From an uncultured Chloroflexota bacterium (GTDB lineage: Bacteria > Chloroflexota > Chloroflexia > Thermomicrobiales > UBA6265): DNA of 36,953 nt. Shown here piece by piece: positions 7,921-28,179 of the stretch. How positions within the stretch are numbered: the first letter of the stretch is position 1; the number at the start of each line of letters is the position of its first letter. The notes beneath the pieces are model-generated. The model was not told the DNA's origin. It worked only from the letters and a program-made list of their open reading frames with translations, and searched no databases. The position numbers and the translations under genes are program-made. The stretch is from the NCBI GenBank assembly GCA_937870845.1, contig CALMZR010000326.1, forward strand, positions 1-36,953. The letters run 5' to 3'.

Positions 7921-8024
7921 GGCTGCTGGCTGCTGGCTGTTAGCTCTTGGCTGCTGGCGCTTGGCTCAGTTTCGATTGTCAATTTAGCCCGAAGCCAGCA
8001 GCCAGCAGCCAAAAGCCAATGGCC
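7921..8024. repeat. Inverted heptamer arrays around a 20-base centre (locus A)
   Basis: Seven units with consensus GGCTGCT fill 7921-7969. After 20 bases (7970-7989), five units of the complementary AGCAGCC type fill 7990-8024. Bases 7921-7938 pair perfectly with 7993-8010. The right arm touches the stop codon of the small gene at 8025; the left arm ends one base from the ribosome site of the next gene. No gene lies between the arms. Confidence 0.9.
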
Positions 8025-16631: not shown

Positions 16632-18341
16632 ATGACCCGACTCGCAGGGAGGCAGACGTCGCTGCTGCGGCGCCAAGTGGACGCCGCCATCAGGGAGTGG
16701 GAGCGGGGAACGCTCGACCGGCGCTCGCTGCTGCGGCGGGCGGCGCTGCTGGGGATGAGCGCCCCGGCGCTGGCGATGCTGCTGGGGCGGGCCTCGACCC
16801 CGCTCGCGTCCGCATCCGCGCTGCGGGCGCTGCAGGACGACCCCGCGGCCGGGACGCCGGGCGGCACGCTGCGCGTGGCCACCATCGGCGAGCCGCCGCA
16901 TCTGGACGAGCACCAGTCGACAGCGGAGATCATCGCCGTCATCGGTTACTGCGCCTACGAAGGGTTGTTCACCTACGACGCGGACTACCAGCCGATCCCC
17001 GAGCTGGTCGCCGAGCACACCGTCTCCGACGACGGTCTGACGCACACCATGGCGCTGCGCCAGGGGGTGATGTTCCACAACGGCGAGCCGATGACCGCCG
17101 CCGACGTCATCGCCTCCGTCGAGCGTTGGGGGCGGATCAGCGGCGTCGGGCAGCGGCTGATGGAGAAGACGAGCGAGCTGGCCCAGGTCGATGACTCCAC
17201 CATCGAGTTCCGCCTCAGCGAGCCGTATGGGACGATTCTCATCGCGCTGGCGCACAATACGCAGGCCTGCACCATCCATCCCAAGTCGATCCTGGACGCG
17301 GCGGGCGACGACCCGATGACGAACGCCGACCAGTACGTCGGCACCGGGCCGTACCGGCTGGTGGAGTGGCAGCGCGACGCGGCGATGCGTTTCGAGCGCT
17401 TCGACGAGTACCAGTCGTCCTCTGAAGATGGGCCGCTGGGCTACGGCGGGACGAAGTACGCCTACGCCGACGCCATCGAGTTCATCCCGGTGCCGGACGA
17501 GGCGGCGCGCGTGGCCGGGTTGCAGGCGGGGGATTACCAGCTCGCGCTCGATATCGGCAATGACCAGTACGCGGTGCTGGCGGACTTCCCTGGCGTGGTG
17601 GCGGAGATCCTCACGCCGACGAACTGGGATGTCTTCTTCCTCAACTGGGAGTCGCCGATGATGGGCAACCTGGCCATGCGCCAGGCGGTGCAGGCGGCGT
17701 TCGACCACCTGCCGATGCTGCAATCGGGCCGCGGCGGCGACGAGTTCATCCGCCTCGACCCGGGGCTGATGATGCAGCAGACGCCGTGGTGGTCCGAGGC
17801 CGGGGCCGAGCGCTACAACGTCAACGACCCGGAGCTGGCGCGGGCCAAGCTGGAGGAGGCCGGCTACGACGGCGAGCCGCTGCGCTTCCTGACGACGCAG
17901 GAATACTCCTACATGTACGGCGAGGCGATCGTGGCCCAGCAGCAACTGGAGGCGGTCGGGATCACGGTCGATCTGCAGGTGGTCGACTGGGCGACGGTGC
18001 TGGAGCGGCGGGCCATCCCCGAGGAGTGGGACATGTTCGGCACCGGGCACGGCTTCGTGCCCGACCCGAGCCAGATCTCCTACGTCGGGCAGATGAACCA
18101 GTACCCCGGCTGGTGGAGCAGCGAAAGCAGCCTGGCGCTGGCGGCGGAGCTGCTGGCCGAGTCGGAATTCGAGACGCGCATGCCGATCTTCGAGCAGATC
18201 CAGGAGGCGCACTACACGGAGATCCCGGCGATCAAGATCGGCGACTCCAGCAACGTTTCTTTCCGCTCCGAAGCAATCGGGGGCTGGGACGGGCAGTTCG
18301 AGCGGGGGGTGAAGTTCTGGAATCTGTGGCTGAACGAGTGA
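16632..18341 (+). CDS. Oligopeptide-type ABC substrate-binding protein with twin-arginine-like N-terminus
   Basis: 569 residues. The ATG at 16632 follows an AGGAGAGGAGG region. Unlike the other binding protein it has a long N-terminus with LDRRSLLRRAALLGMSAPAL (about 34-53), a twin-arginine-like export signal, then an Ala/Ser-rich cleavage region. Family 5 features follow: GGTLRVATIGEPPHLD, TMALRQGVMFHNGEPMTAADV, YVGTGPYRLVEWQRD and a C-terminal PSQISYVGQMNQYPGWW segment. It is the first gene of the plus-strand importer operon. Its stop codon overlaps the first unit of heptamer locus B. Confidence 0.92.
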   Translation: MTRLAGRQTSLLRRQVDAAIREWERGTLDRRSLLRRAALLGMSAPALAMLLGRASTPLASASALRALQDDPAAGTPGGTLRVATIGEPPHLDEHQSTAEIIAVIGYCAYEGLFTYDADYQPIPELVAEHTVSDDGLTHTMALRQGVMFHNGEPMTAADVIASVERWGRISGVGQRLMEKTSELAQVDDSTIEFRLSEPYGTILIALAHNTQACTIHPKSILDAAGDDPMTNADQYVGTGPYRLVEWQRDAAMRFERFDEYQSSSEDGPLGYGGTKYAYADAIEFIPVPDEAARVAGLQAGDYQLALDIGNDQYAVLADFPGVVAEILTPTNWDVFFLNWESPMMGNLAMRQAVQAAFDHLPMLQSGRGGDEFIRLDPGLMMQQTPWWSEAGAERYNVNDPELARAKLEEAGYDGEPLRFLTTQEYSYMYGEAIVAQQQLEAVGITVDLQVVDWATVLERRAIPEEWDMFGTGHGFVPDPSQISYVGQMNQYPGWWSSESSLALAAELLAESEFETRMPIFEQIQEAHYTEIPAIKIGDSSNVSFRSEAIGGWDGQFERGVKFWNLWLNE

Positions 18342-18486
18342 GGCGGGAGGCGGGAGGCGGAAGGCGGGAGGACGACGGGCGAGGCGCGCCTCGCCAGGGC
18401 ACGGCATGCCGTGCCCCTACCGTTGTCTTGCCGCCTTGCCGTCTTTCCGTTCTTTCCTTCCGCCTCCCGCCTCCCGCCTCCCGCCT
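18341..18486. repeat. Inverted heptamer arrays around two palindromes (locus B)
   Basis: Five units of AGGCGGG type fill 18341-18375; the first unit uses the last base of the preceding stop codon. Four clear units of CCCGCCT type fill 18459-18486, preceded by degenerate 7-8-base units from about 18424. Between them lie two perfect palindromes, GGCGAGGCGCGCCTCGCC (18378-18395) and GGGCACGGCATGCCGTGCCC (18397-18416). The variant unit AGGCGGA occurs in both arms. Confidence 0.88.
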
Positions 18487-18492
18487 CGTCCC

Positions 18493-19609: not shown

Positions 19610-20512
19610 ATGGCAATCGTAACGAGCGCCGGACCACGTGCAGAAACCGCGGCCCTCTCCCGCGCTCCGGATCGCTCGCGCTGGGCGGCCGGGGCGCGGA
19701 CGCTGTTCGGCAACCCGGTGACGATCGTTGCTGCCGTCTTTCTGCTCCTCGTGGTCCTTGCCGCGGTCTTCGCCCCGGTGATCGCGAGGCATGATCCGAC
19801 GTTTCTCGATCCGGGGGTGCGGTTGCAGGGGCCGTCGGCCGAGTTCCCGATGGGGACGGACGACCGGGGGCGGGACATCTTCAGCCGGGTGATCTATGGG
19901 GGGCGCGTCTCGCTGGCGATCGGGGTGGGCGTGACGCTGGCGGCGGCGGCGATCGGGTCGGTGCTGGGGCTGCTGTCGGGGTATTTCCCGCGGCTCGATA
20001 CGCCGATCATGCGCACGCTGGACGGGCTGATGGCGTTCCCCAGCATCCTGCTGGCGATCGCGATCATGGCCAGCCTGGGGCCGTCGGCGACGAACGTCTT
20101 TCTGGCGCTGACGGTGGTCTACACGCCGACGGTGGCGCGGCTGGTGCGCAGCACGACGTTGGTGACGCGGCAGCAGCCGTTCGTGGAGTCGGCGCGGTCG
20201 ATCGGGATGACGGACGCGGGGATTTTGCTGCGCTACGTCTACCCGAACGGACTCTCGCCGCTGATCGTGCAGTGCACCTTCGTGGTGGCGTTCGCCATCA
20301 TCTCGGAGGCGTCGCTGTCGTTTCTGGGGGCGGGGGTGGACCCGGAGACGCCGACGTGGGGGAACATGCTGCGCGACGGGCAGCGGGTGCTGCAGGTCGC
20401 GTGGTGGCTGGCGCTCTTTCCGGGGATCGCGCTGGTCCTGACGGTGCTGACGCTCAACGTGCTGGGGGATGCGCTGCGGGACGCGCTGGACCCACGGGGG
20501 CGGGGAAGGTAG
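19610..20512 (+). CDS. Oligopeptide ABC importer permease, DppC/OppC type (second system)
   Basis: 300 residues from the ATG at 19610. After a cytoplasmic N-terminus comes a membrane segment (VTIVAAVFLLLVVLAAVFAPVI, about 37-58), the conserved GTDDRGRDIFSRVIYGGRVSL, and five further segments. The EAA loop is QPFVESARSIGMTDAGILLRYVYPNG, where the usual His of HILPN is Tyr. It ends LGDALRDALDPRG, typical of OppC. It pairs with the upstream permease. The heptamer element with the S23 gene follows four bases after its stop. Confidence 0.92.
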   Translation: MAIVTSAGPRAETAALSRAPDRSRWAAGARTLFGNPVTIVAAVFLLLVVLAAVFAPVIARHDPTFLDPGVRLQGPSAEFPMGTDDRGRDIFSRVIYGGRVSLAIGVGVTLAAAAIGSVLGLLSGYFPRLDTPIMRTLDGLMAFPSILLAIAIMASLGPSATNVFLALTVVYTPTVARLVRSTTLVTRQQPFVESARSIGMTDAGILLRYVYPNGLSPLIVQCTFVVAFAIISEASLSFLGAGVDPETPTWGNMLRDGQRVLQVAWWLALFPGIALVLTVLTLNVLGDALRDALDPRGRGR

Positions 20513-20516
20513 GCGG

Positions 20517-20551
20517 GCTATCAGCTATCAGCTATCAGCTATCAGCTTTCA
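20517..20551 (+). repeat. Left heptamer arm of locus C
   Basis: Four exact copies of GCTATCA are followed by one GCTTTCA. The arm begins four bases after the stop codon of the permease. Read in any frame on this strand it contains no stop codon. It is the exact complement of the innermost five units of the right arm at 20949-20983, including the variant unit in the innermost place. Confidence 0.95.
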
Positions 20552-20576
20552 GCCCGACGGCGACGTGGAGGGCAAG

Positions 20577-20951
20577 GTGGGGGACTTTCGCAACCTCAAG
20601 GTGTGGGAAAAGGGGCATCGGTTGACGCTGGACGTTTACGCCGCGACGAGGCCGTTTCCACGTGACGAACTCGTCGCATTGACCGGCCAGTTGCGGCGAT
20701 CGGTTTCGTCCATACCCGCAAACATCGCCGAAGGGTGCGGACGCAACGGAGACGCTGAGTTGGCGCGGTTCATGGACATCGCCATGGGCTCGGCGAGCGA
20801 GCTCAGCTACCACCTCATCCTTGCCCGCGATCTCGGCTACCTCCTGTCCCAAAACTATGATCGCCTTGCCGGCGAAACGGAGGAGATCAAACGCATGCTC
20901 GCCACCTTCACCGCCCGCCTGCGCAACAAGACGCCAAGACCCGACCGCTGA
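20577..20951 (+). CDS. Four-helix-bundle (S23 / 23S rRNA intervening-sequence) family protein
   Basis: 124 residues. The GTG at 20577 has GGAGGG just upstream and gives the family's usual start GDFRNLKVWEKGH. The family signature follows: FPRDELVALTGQLRRSVSSIPANIAEGCGRNG, with a C-terminal Glu/Lys-rich helix. Members form pentameric four-helix bundles. They are found inside 23S rRNA intervening sequences, and relatives (Avd) assist reverse transcriptases in diversity-generating retroelements. The biochemical role of stand-alone members is not known. The gene lies between inverted heptamer arms, and its TGA stop is the first three bases of the right arm. It interrupts an importer operon. Confidence 0.92.
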   Translation: MGDFRNLKVWEKGHRLTLDVYAATRPFPRDELVALTGQLRRSVSSIPANIAEGCGRNGDAELARFMDIAMGSASELSYHLILARDLGYLLSQNYDRLAGETEEIKRMLATFTARLRNKTPRPDR

Positions 20952-21004
20952 AAGCTGATAGCTGATAGCTGATAGCTGATAGCTGATAGCTGATAGCTGA
21001 TAGC
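20949..21004 (+). repeat. Right heptamer arm of locus C
   Basis: One TGAAAGC is followed by seven exact copies of TGATAGC. It ends two bases before the ribosome site of the dipeptidase gene. Because 7 is not a multiple of 3 and the unit contains TGA, an array of three units closes all three reading frames. With the left arm it could form a perfect stem of 35 base pairs, with register slippage because the right arm has three more units. Confidence 0.95.
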
Positions 21005-21016
21005 CCGGAGGCCCCC

Positions 21017-22084
21017 ATGCTCGTCGTCGACGCCCATCTCGACCTGGCGATGAACGCGGTGATGTGGAACCGCGATCTGGCGCTGAGCGCGCACGAGACG
21101 CGGGGGATCGAGCGCGCGGAAGGGATGACGGAGAAAGGGCGAGGCGCGGGGACGGTGGGGTTTCCGGATTTGCGGGCGGGGGAGGTGGGGCTCGTCTTCG
21201 CCACGGTGATCGCGCGCAAGAACCACGGCCAGAACAGCGGTATCGATTTTCGGACGCACGAGATCGCCTTCGCGCAGGCGCAGGGGCAGCTCGCGTACTA
21301 CCGGGAGCTGGAGCGGCAGGGGGTGATCCGCATCGTGCGCACGCGGGAGGATCTGGCGGCGTGGCGGGCGGGGTGGGACGCGGACCCGGCGACGGCGCCG
21401 TTCGGGTTCGTGCTGCTGATGGAGGGGGCGGACCCGATCGTGGCGCCGGAGCAGGCGGGGCTGTGGTGGAGTGATGGGTTGCGGATCGTGGGGCTGGCGC
21501 ATTACGGGCCGAGCGCGTACGCCTTCGGCACGGGGAGCGCGGGGCCGCTGACGGCCAAGGGGCGGGCGCTGCTGAAGGAGATGGACGGGCTGGGGATGAT
21601 GCTGGACGTCTCCCACCTGACCGACGAGAGTTTTCACGAGGCGCTCGACGTGTTTCGAGGGCCGGTGCTGGCCAGCCACTCCAACTGCCGCGCCCTCGTG
21701 CCCGGCGACCGGCAGCTCGACGACGCCATGATCCGGCGGCTGATCGAGCGGGATGGGGTGATCGGGGCGGCGATGGACGCCTGGATGCTGCAACCGGGGT
21801 GGGTGCGGGGGGAGACGACGAACGAGGGGCTAACGTTGGAGGCGGTGGTGGACCAGATCGACCACGTCTGTCAGATCGCGGGGAACAGCCGGCACGCGGC
21901 GATCGGGACGGACCTCGATGGGGGGTACGGGATCGAGCAGACGCCGCGGGATGTGGACACGATCGCGGACGTGCAGCGGATTGGGGAGCTATTGAGGGGA
22001 AGGGGGTATGGGGAGGAGGACGTGGCGGGGGTGATGCATGGGAATTGGGAGAGGCTGTTGGACGACGGGCTGCCAAAAGCTTGA
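21017..22084 (+). CDS. Membrane dipeptidase, peptidase family M19
   Basis: 355 residues from the ATG at 21017 with GGAG upstream. The zinc ligands of renal-type dipeptidases are present: H7 and D9 (DAHLDL), E136 (LLMEGADP), H200 (DVSHLTD) and H221 (ASHSNC). The late GTDLDGGYG and HGNWERLL segments are also typical. No signal peptide is visible, so it is probably cytoplasmic. As the last gene of the importer operon it would hydrolyse imported dipeptides, including those with D-residues. The heptamer/S23 element lies between it and the permeases. Confidence 0.92.
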   Translation: MLVVDAHLDLAMNAVMWNRDLALSAHETRGIERAEGMTEKGRGAGTVGFPDLRAGEVGLVFATVIARKNHGQNSGIDFRTHEIAFAQAQGQLAYYRELERQGVIRIVRTREDLAAWRAGWDADPATAPFGFVLLMEGADPIVAPEQAGLWWSDGLRIVGLAHYGPSAYAFGTGSAGPLTAKGRALLKEMDGLGMMLDVSHLTDESFHEALDVFRGPVLASHSNCRALVPGDRQLDDAMIRRLIERDGVIGAAMDAWMLQPGWVRGETTNEGLTLEAVVDQIDHVCQIAGNSRHAAIGTDLDGGYGIEQTPRDVDTIADVQRIGELLRGRGYGEEDVAGVMHGNWERLLDDGLPKA

Positions 22085-24018: not shown

Positions 24019-24978
24019 ATGAAGGCTGAGGAAAGTTCGGAGAGCAAGGAGCTTTTCAGGCGAGAGAGAGTCGTCCTGCAGGTATTGACCATGCTGCTCG
24101 TGCTGGCGATGGCCGGCGAGGCGCTTGCTCCTGCTGCCGTCTCGGCGCAGCGAAAACCCAGCGGCGGCGTCAATACCGAGGTCGTCGGCGGCCAACCCGT
24201 CCCCCAGGGGACCTTCCGGTTCATGACCTTCGTCCGCGTCGACGCCGCCACTGGGCCGTTCATCTGCGCAGGTAGTCTCATCGCGCCGCGCTTCGTGCTG
24301 ACCGCGGCCCATTGCCTCGAAGATGATTTCGGGAATGTCGTGCCGCCCGGCGATTTCCGCCTGACCATCGGCCGCGCGTTCCTGCCCGACTCCAGCAAAG
24401 GGGTCGTGCGCGGCGTGGTCGATGCTGCGCAGCACCCGCAGTGGAATCCACCGGTCTCGGGCAACGAGTTCGACGTGGGCGTGCTCGAGCTCGACGCGGC
24501 GGTCCCGTCGTTCATCGCTCAGCCGCTCGCATTCGTCGATGGCGGGGAGACGCGCTTCGACGAGGCCGGGCGGTCGGTGGTCGTTGCAGGCTGGGGCGTG
24601 ACCTCCTCCGGCGCCTCCACCAACCGCTTGCAGTCCGCCAGGCTCAACGTCGTCGACAATGCCGCCTGCGCCGATGCCTACGCCGACTTCGCGCAGGCCG
24701 TGATGGTCTGCGCCGCGTTCCGCGGCCGGGATTCGTGCCAGGGCGACAGCGGCGGCCCTCTCTTCGCGCGCGAAGTGATCGGCTTCGACGTCAAGAAGAA
24801 GAAAAAGAAGAAGGGGCACAAGCGCGAGAAGGTCCGCGTCCCCATCTCCCGCGACGTGCAGATGGGGATCGTCAGCTTCGGCCGCGGCTGCGCCCTGCCC
24901 GGCTTCCCCGGCGTCTACACTCGCCTCAGCGACGACGAGGTCAACGACTTCATTGTGAGCGAAGTGGGTTTCGGGTGA
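24019..24978 (+). CDS. Exported trypsin-like serine protease 1 (S1A) with poly-Lys insertion
   Basis: 319 residues from the ATG at 24019; a GTG at 23992 with AGGAG seven bases upstream is an alternative start. An N-terminal hydrophobic segment (about 19-43) serves as signal. The triad is H98 (LTAAHC), D152 (DVGVLEL) and S244 (GDSGGP). D238 lies where trypsin has Asp189, predicting cleavage after Lys/Arg. NTEVVGG marks the activation site, so a short propeptide is expected. A Lys-rich insertion (about 259-272) sits after [11 protein letters not shown]. The stop codon lies in the first unit of heptamer locus D. A paralogue follows. Confidence 0.92.
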   Translation: MKAEESSESKELFRRERVVLQVLTMLLVLAMAGEALAPAAVSAQRKPSGGVNTEVVGGQPVPQGTFRFMTFVRVDAATGPFICAGSLIAPRFVLTAAHCLEDDFGNVVPPGDFRLTIGRAFLPDSSKGVVRGVVDAAQHPQWNPPVSGNEFDVGVLELDAAVPSFIAQPLAFVDGGETRFDEAGRSVVVAGWGVTSSGASTNRLQSARLNVVDNAACADAYADFAQAVMVCAAFRGRDSCQGDSGGPLFAREVIGFDVKKKKKKKGHKREKVRVPISRDVQMGIVSFGRGCALPGFPGVYTRLSDDEVNDFIVSEVGFG

Positions 24979-25008
24979 CGGGTGACGGGCGTCGGGTGTC
25001 GGGGTGAG
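24974..25008 (+). repeat. One-sided heptamer array at a stop codon (locus D)
   Basis: Five units in register: GGTGACG twice, then GGCGTCG, GGTGTCG and GGGTGAG. The TGA of protease 1 (24976-24978) is part of the first unit. No inverted partner array was found before the next gene. Confidence 0.7.

Positions 25009-25387: not shown

Positions 25388-28179
<2,792 letters not shown>

Follow-up and report, generated by a model that had tools for sequence, protein, structure and literature searches.

Why does a gene of the S23 family stand between two inverted arrays of 7-bp repeats inside a transporter operon, and is it a resident of that operon or a mobile element that has inserted there? The locus lies in the window, by which we mean the whole 36,953-nucleotide stretch of DNA that was analyzed, and its features are annotated on the plus strand. 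The left terminal array (20517-20553) consists of four copies of GCTATCA, one GCTTTCA and a final GC, and it is located shortly 3' of the stop codon (20510-20512) of the gene for an OppC-type ABC transporter permease (19610-20512). The right terminal array (20947-21004) reads GC, TGAAAGC and seven copies of TGATAGC, and the ATG of an M19 membrane dipeptidase gene (21017-22084) follows 12 bases past its end. The repeat content is exactly that given in the first-pass annotation of this DNA, and the gene order SBP_bac_5, BPD_transp_1, OppC-type permease, S23 unit, M19 dipeptidase bears out the transporter-operon setting that it described. When anchored at their inner ends, the arms are 100% complementary over 37 bp (20517-20553 against 20947-20983). 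The window contains 11 copies of GCTATCA where 1.65 would be expected, a count that 0 of 100 shuffles reach, and all 11 copies are confined to the two arrays flanking the S23 gene.

Of the ORFs between these arms, just one matches a known family, and it is the S23, or 23S_rRNA_IVP, four-helix-bundle gene itself (20565-20951, plus strand); no known transposase was found in this long form of the unit. The match to PF05635 (23S_rRNA_IVP) has an E-value of 1.5e-35 and a score of 122.1 bits against a curated cut-off of 33.8, and the ORF also matches TIGR02436, which upholds the initial assignment of the gene to this family. Its start codon is the GTG at 20565 or that at 20577, and its TGA stop codon (20949-20951) is created by the first unit of the right array. 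When the RNA spanning positions 20505-21016 is folded, the arms form a long closing stem (z = -8.9 relative to shuffles), so that terminal inverted repeats form a stem around the S23 ORF. The window unit had been likened to the hairpin-forming intervening sequences (IVSs) of 23S rRNA, transplanted to an mRNA operon, and this likeness is supported by the closing stem and by the finding, presented below, that S23 genes generally have such arms. The unit is located in an ABC-transporter operon, outside rRNA genes. None of five conserved 23S motifs (0/5) was found in the S23 loci searched, and a 23S rRNA location was rejected for those loci.

The same architecture recurs at many other S23 genes. 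The genome that contains the window (G000) has six more of them, each beside inverted arrays with a period of 7 or 8 bp; their units are TGGCTNY, AGGCGGR, AGTCGTG, GGGTGNC and two 8-mers. S23 genes are carried by 87 of the 150 genomes of the window's class. At 44 of 77 multi-phylum loci, which are the usable S23 loci chosen by sequence, and at 28 of 36 loci of this class, one or both flanks of S23 contain a tandem array no more than 250 bp away, and such arrays were found in 7 of 286 and 9 of 133 control windows placed 750-1400 bp away. These counts dispose of a concern raised when the window unit was first described, namely that S23 genes elsewhere might lack arrays; about 40% of the multi-phylum loci, most often those of Bacteroidota, are without a clear one. 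The array period is 7 in 93 of 107 cases and 8 in 10 of 107. The S23 units sit in unrelated operons (cas I-D, suf, trb and ABC transporter operons). Among loci with clear neighbors, S23 is co-directional with both neighbors in 80 of 106 and antisense to both in 2 of 106. Most simply read, this orientation bias means either that the host operon supplies the transcription of S23 or that insertions in other orientations are lost. On the Pseudanabaena galeata plasmid pPg_01 (L182, 2860-3465), a type I-D CRISPR operon is interrupted by an S23 gene with long AAAGCTA-type arrays, which separates cas6 from cas4. S23 genes are also found on 29 putative viral contigs from IMG/VR (L194-L222), many of them with similar arrays.

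The heptamer unit differs from locus to locus and is the same within both arms of a locus. We compared each upstream arm with the reverse complement of the downstream arm from the same locus and obtained a score of at least 18 in 47% of 113 loci, compared with 0.7% for mismatched loci and 1% for far flanks. A locus's own downstream arm outscores all others in 64 of the 113. The inverted arms, in other words, are locus-specific. The first-pass annotation had also emphasized that the variant unit is innermost in both arms, making them mirror images. This is correct for the window locus and does not hold as a general rule, given that the order of variant units agrees between arms no better than in shuffled arms over 46 S23 loci (18 above the shuffled mean); mirror symmetry of unit order as a general sign of fold-back copying was rejected over these loci. 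Since unit order is not mirrored, the two arms preserve a common word rather than an exact stem, and strict stem pairing is under no obvious selection. Purines predominate in 51 of 63 upstream arms, and AG is found in 80% of units, GG in 57% and CC in 2%. This strand asymmetry of the arms suggests either that one strand is recognized or that the arms provide a translation signal.

The commonest arm size is 4-5 units, and some arrays extend to 26 units. Long arrays of this kind, together with copy numbers that differ between the two arms, are what might be expected if arrays and inverted arms were products of replication slippage or template switching at quasi-palindromes, with no element involved. 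We find this explanation scarcely credible, as it cannot account for precise gene insertion, for one word at dozens of sites or for the pairing of word and protein across phyla, and it is contradicted by the insertion polymorphisms described below.

The pairing of word and protein is seen as a correlation: the more alike two S23 proteins are, the more alike their heptamers tend to be (Mantel r 0.21, p 0.0002). Among cross-phylum pairs with a protein similarity greater than 0.6, heptamer similarity is at least 5/7 in 51%, against a background of approximately 3%. The window's own heptamer is essentially identical to the one found at S23 loci of two distant genomes, one deltaproteobacterial and one from Nitrospinota, and the S23 tree contains 37 phylum changes against a minimum of 15, with the G-numbered genomes assigned to Chloroflexota by inference.

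The possibility that the unit is mobile had been raised from the window alone. Because no recognizable DNA-level ortholog of the window operon was found in genus-mates, and hence no empty site for the window locus, mobility was shown on Nostocales plasmids, where ten homologous operons were compared and S23 content differs. At the gene2/gene3 site, S23 is present in Nostoc C052 pC052_D, ATCC 53789 pNsp_a and N6 pNPM1, and it is cleanly absent from five other plasmids that read straight through (for example, GGTTCTAGGTTATGC). At the gene3/gene4 site, S23 is present only in ATCC 53789 pNsp_c and is of another type, with AAAGGGG-like arrays; the other plasmids have short stop-to-start junctions at this site, TAATG in several of them. 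In pNPM1, a gene-less element of 182 bp, bounded by similar arrays, has interrupted the S23 ORF, and the intact target of this element, GAGAGCAG|ATAAAGC, survives in two relatives. The 182-bp element has 103 matching places in 43 plasmids and is thus a true repeated family. Precise empty sites, presence and absence of S23 and a nested insertion all substantiate the suspected mobility in these plasmids.

The duplication of target sequence is at most 1 bp at the cleanest site, that of the 182-bp element, and is 0-3 bp, an ambiguous value, at the other two; no fixed target tetranucleotide is found at the three resolved insertion sites. When the elements are compared with miniature inverted-repeat elements (MITEs) and insertion sequences, terminal inverted repeats are present and a target-site duplication of the kind expected is not. 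Some known insertion sequence families also lack target-site duplication. At the gene1/gene2 site, two Nostoc plasmids (L187 520-830 and L189 520-870) have a common position and common outer arms with different interiors, an apparent exchange of the interior, perhaps as a result of nested insertion plus deletion between direct arrays. A 4-kb cluster in another genome (L226, G008:C28:377500-384500) contains nested inverted arrays of at least three heptamers (GGCAAAG, AACTGGT and ACCATCA) and looks as if elements insert into one another.

The opposite view would be that S23 is a resident RNA-binding regulator, inherited vertically as a fixed member of its operon, and that the arms are a hairpin in its own mRNA. 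The strong RNA stem and the strong co-direction of S23 with its neighbors are compatible with such a role, as is one other site in the window's genus, where S23 is common to four congeneric species and its ORFs are intact. The units at this site are AGTCGTG, GGAGTCGA, AGTCGGTS and AGTCGAN, such that both arms change together and the core AGTCG is kept, and the flanks are 80-85% identical among three of the four species. Vertical descent and fast change thus both occur at S23 sites. We nevertheless consider a fixed regulatory member quite unlikely in light of the presence, absence and shifts of position in Nostoc operons, the nested insertion, the gene-less dispersal and the unrelated host operons. 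In addition, one site in two genomes (L054 and L070) has flanks that are approximately 80% identical, yet its heptamers differ (AGGCAAT and AACTGGT) and its S23 proteins are 54% identical. The first-pass annotation had named a fixed S23 in orthologous operons as the observation that would count against its proposal; S23 is not fixed in the Nostoc operons, so that this objection was not borne out, although S23 is common to four species at one other site in the window's genus.

Arrays of S23 words are also dispersed without the gene. In G000, searches with three S23 words gave 231, 178 and 157 hits, compared with 33, 2 and 1 for reversed-word controls. All 16 of the GCTATCA cases in this genome that were examined in full are forward-then-reverse pairs with interiors of 49-107 bp, and the interiors of these short elements look unrelated when compared by eye. 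Unlike interiors are unusual for MITEs. The dispersed intergenic 7-bp tandem arrays characteristic of STRR-like repeats are present. Among 31 genomes, only two contain AACTGGN arrays: G005, and G008, where an S23 with this heptamer resides. Dispersed arrays and S23 heptamers co-occur in the tested genomes of the window's group, and gene-less relatives with the cognate heptamer fit a protein that acts in trans, in line with the earlier idea that the unit has its own helper protein. GCTATCA arrays are also numerous in G002 (98% complete), with 34 hits, and in G001, with 28, and despite this no S23 with a GCTATCA heptamer was found in either genome. Arrays can therefore spread in genomes that now have no matching S23, whether because the gene was lost or for another reason. 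The cross-phylum test was mixed, in that amplification of the cognate heptamer is only modest in Thiohalocapsa and Pseudaminobacter and unrelated genomes carry similar arrays.

The window itself contains five further period-7 arrays (at 7921, 7986, 18340, 18456 and 24972), which were found without preset words. Four of the five rank a same-genome S23 heptamer first of 72, and the fifth ranks one second. Two of these arrays are the arms (18340-18371 and 18456-18487) of a gene-less element in the same transporter operon (18340-18487, no strand assigned), which has the form (GAGGCGG..)n ... (CCGCCTC..)n and begins at the stop codon of the solute-binding-protein gene; the best match to its unit among the 72 S23 heptamers is that of L003, from the same genome. 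Its interior contains two short palindromes, GGCGAGGCGCGCCTCGCC and GGCACGGCATGCCGTGCC. Two others are the arms (7921-7952 and 7986-8019) of a gene-less element of the TGGCTNY family (7921-8019, no strand assigned), for which the cognate S23 is L002 (G000:C45), ranking first and second of the 72. This inverted pair has an interior of approximately 33 bp and adjoins the start of a minus-strand gene. The remaining one is a single array of GGGTGAC/GGGTGTC (24972-25003, plus strand), for which the best match of the 72, and the cognate S23, is L005 (G000:C183); no inverted partner was found nearby. The window also holds repeats of other kinds. The 18-mer AAGCCCCTCTCCCCGCGC, a different dispersed repeat, occurs three times in intergenic DNA (13247, 26489 and 26503), and a 9-bp tandem repeat of GATGCC(G/A)AA at approximately 26420-26455 occurs again on another contig beside a GCTATCA array (L036, 1577-1603) and is possibly another dispersed repeat family, of period 9.

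Gene-less inverted pairs at intergenic sites, inserted with no target duplication, are reminiscent of REPINs (PMC3116915). The arrays might accordingly be substrates of an unrelated trans-acting transposase, for example a Y1/RAYT enzyme, and S23 a passenger caught in an array pair. Y1 enzymes (PF01797) are indeed present in some carriers, namely G003, G005 and G008. However, G000, the genome with the most arrays, has one borderline PF01797 hit, and Y1 is absent from G001 and from near-complete G002 in spite of the many GCTATCA arrays of both; a Y1/RAYT partner was rejected on this absence. Moreover, it is S23 and not Y1 that is enclosed by arrays in the various phyla and that varies together with the heptamer, and the three resolved sites have no fixed target tetranucleotide. 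We therefore regard a foreign transposase with S23 as its passenger as unlikely.

The structure of the S23 protein points toward another kind of partner. Its AF2 model has a pLDDT of 95.7 and matches 2gsc and 2rld, as a four-helix bundle; the nearest solved fold is XCC0516 (TM 0.94), and BT_0352 also has the same fold. After S23 itself, the closest fold is that of Avd of diversity-generating retroelement (DGR) reverse transcriptase complexes (TM of about 0.84). Residues Q38, N49, A51, E52, G53 and E75 are invariant in 119 of 119 sequences, with residues 45-53 partly biased by the search pattern. Q38, R41, S45, N49 and E52 are spaced 3-4 residues apart on one helix, where they could make up a surface for binding or catalysis; S23 is without a recognized catalytic motif. 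Given the resemblance to Avd, an Avd-like S23 might cooperate with a reverse transcriptase of DGR, group II or retron type that copies the hairpin RNA into new sites, a mechanism that would fit both the sense-strand bias and duplication-free insertion. Yet PF00078 reverse transcriptases were found in 0 of 13 genomes of the window's group, all rich carriers included, so a reverse transcriptase partner was rejected and a retro-mechanism appears very improbable. Because PF00078 is absent from these 13 genomes and Y1 from G002, neither a retroelement partner nor a RAYT seems to be needed in these carriers, as judged from draft assemblies.

Taken together, these findings make it probable that the S23 element is a mobile element composed of one small gene between inverted arrays of 7-8-bp units, the protein of which recognizes its own unit and spreads gene-less copies. 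The architecture, generality and mobility of S23 elements are well supported, and they are apparently a very widespread and previously undescribed kind of bacterial mobile element; binding of the protein to the unit, its action in trans and the enzyme that cuts and joins are what we infer. According to this model, the S23 protein, an Avd-like four-helix bundle with a solved relative that is a pentamer, would recognize, in nucleic acid, the unit that its own element carries, and a breaking and joining activity, supplied by the host or by the element itself, would spread both the elements that encode S23 and the derivatives that have retained the arrays without the gene. Insertions would be precise, with 0-1 bp duplicated as at the cleanest site, and would persist at intercistronic junctions, and S23 copies would be retained when co-directional with the host operon, their probable source of transcription. 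The arms of the transcript could pair to form a stem whose loop contains the ORF. The 23S rRNA IVSs have this arrangement and would then be rRNA-inserted members of the S23-element class.

A more far-reaching proposal, for which we would claim slightly less than an even chance, takes several statements together: that S23 proteins are the recombinases or specificity subunits of a new class of transposable elements present in many phyla, that the heptamer ends coevolve with them, and that the heptamer repeats of cyanobacteria and xanthomonads are gene-less descendants of such elements, and 23S rRNA IVSs rRNA-inserted ones. If this is true, a role would be provided for a large family of orphan proteins that has been noted chiefly as an oddity of fragmented 23S rRNA, and the carrier would be named for the heptamer repeats of cyanobacteria, xanthomonads and Beggiatoaceae. 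Each S23 protein would bring its own predicted target word, making both questions testable, and a small all-helical protein that moves DNA, or steers another enzyme, by way of stacked 7-base words would constitute a new principle among mobile elements. A literature search, conducted mostly outside subscription journals and preprints, found no paper linking S23 to heptamer arrays.

Several known systems share parts of this architecture. Dispersed heptamers such as GGGAATC in Xanthomonas, GGGGA(C/T)T in Nostoc and Anabaena, and TAACTGA in Beggiatoaceae and Cyanobacteria also form 7-bp intergenic tandem arrays. Rehm et al. described approximately 70 convergent inverted heptamer pairs in X. campestris and saw no mobile element (PMC4692102), and MacGregor, in a study of TAACTGA arrays, raised the speculative idea that the mobile element might be a protein that binds them (PMC4679880); the accessible portions of these two studies leave the origin and carrier of the repeats unexplained and do not mention S23. 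TAACTGA (PMC4679880) is one base off TAGCTGA, which is a rotation of the window's right-arm unit, and the species in which the GGGAATC arrays were described is also the source of XCC0516, the solved S23 structure. By resemblance, S23 may be linked to the Xanthomonas and Beggiatoaceae repeats. Avd of diversity-generating retroelements has its fold in common with S23 (TM of about 0.84), whereas S23 has invariant residues of its own and the 13 genomes are without PF00078. The IVSs of 23S rRNA with an S23p ORF in Leptospira, Coxiella and Xanthomonas contain a gene of the same family in the loop of a stem formed by terminal inverted repeats. In Coxiella the stem of the IVS is 28 bp long, and GACAGAT heptamers in tandem immediately precede the start of S23p (PMC4990558); IVP ORFs are found within 16S and 23S insertions of CPR bacteria (PMC11270868). 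In contrast to the 23S rRNA IVSs, the window unit is located in an mRNA operon, its arms are tandem arrays of locus-specific units, and its gene-less relatives are dispersed in the genome. In REPIN/RAYT systems, gene-less inverted pairs that form hairpins, occupy intergenic sites and are cognate to a resident gene are likewise spread in trans. There, however, the gene is a Y1 transposase and the REP is a single palindromic word, whereas S23 elements have S23 as their gene and tandem arrays as their ends, and Y1 is missing from at least one near-complete carrier genome. In its workings the S23 unit resembles both an IVS and a REPIN system, yet by the features tested it belongs to neither.
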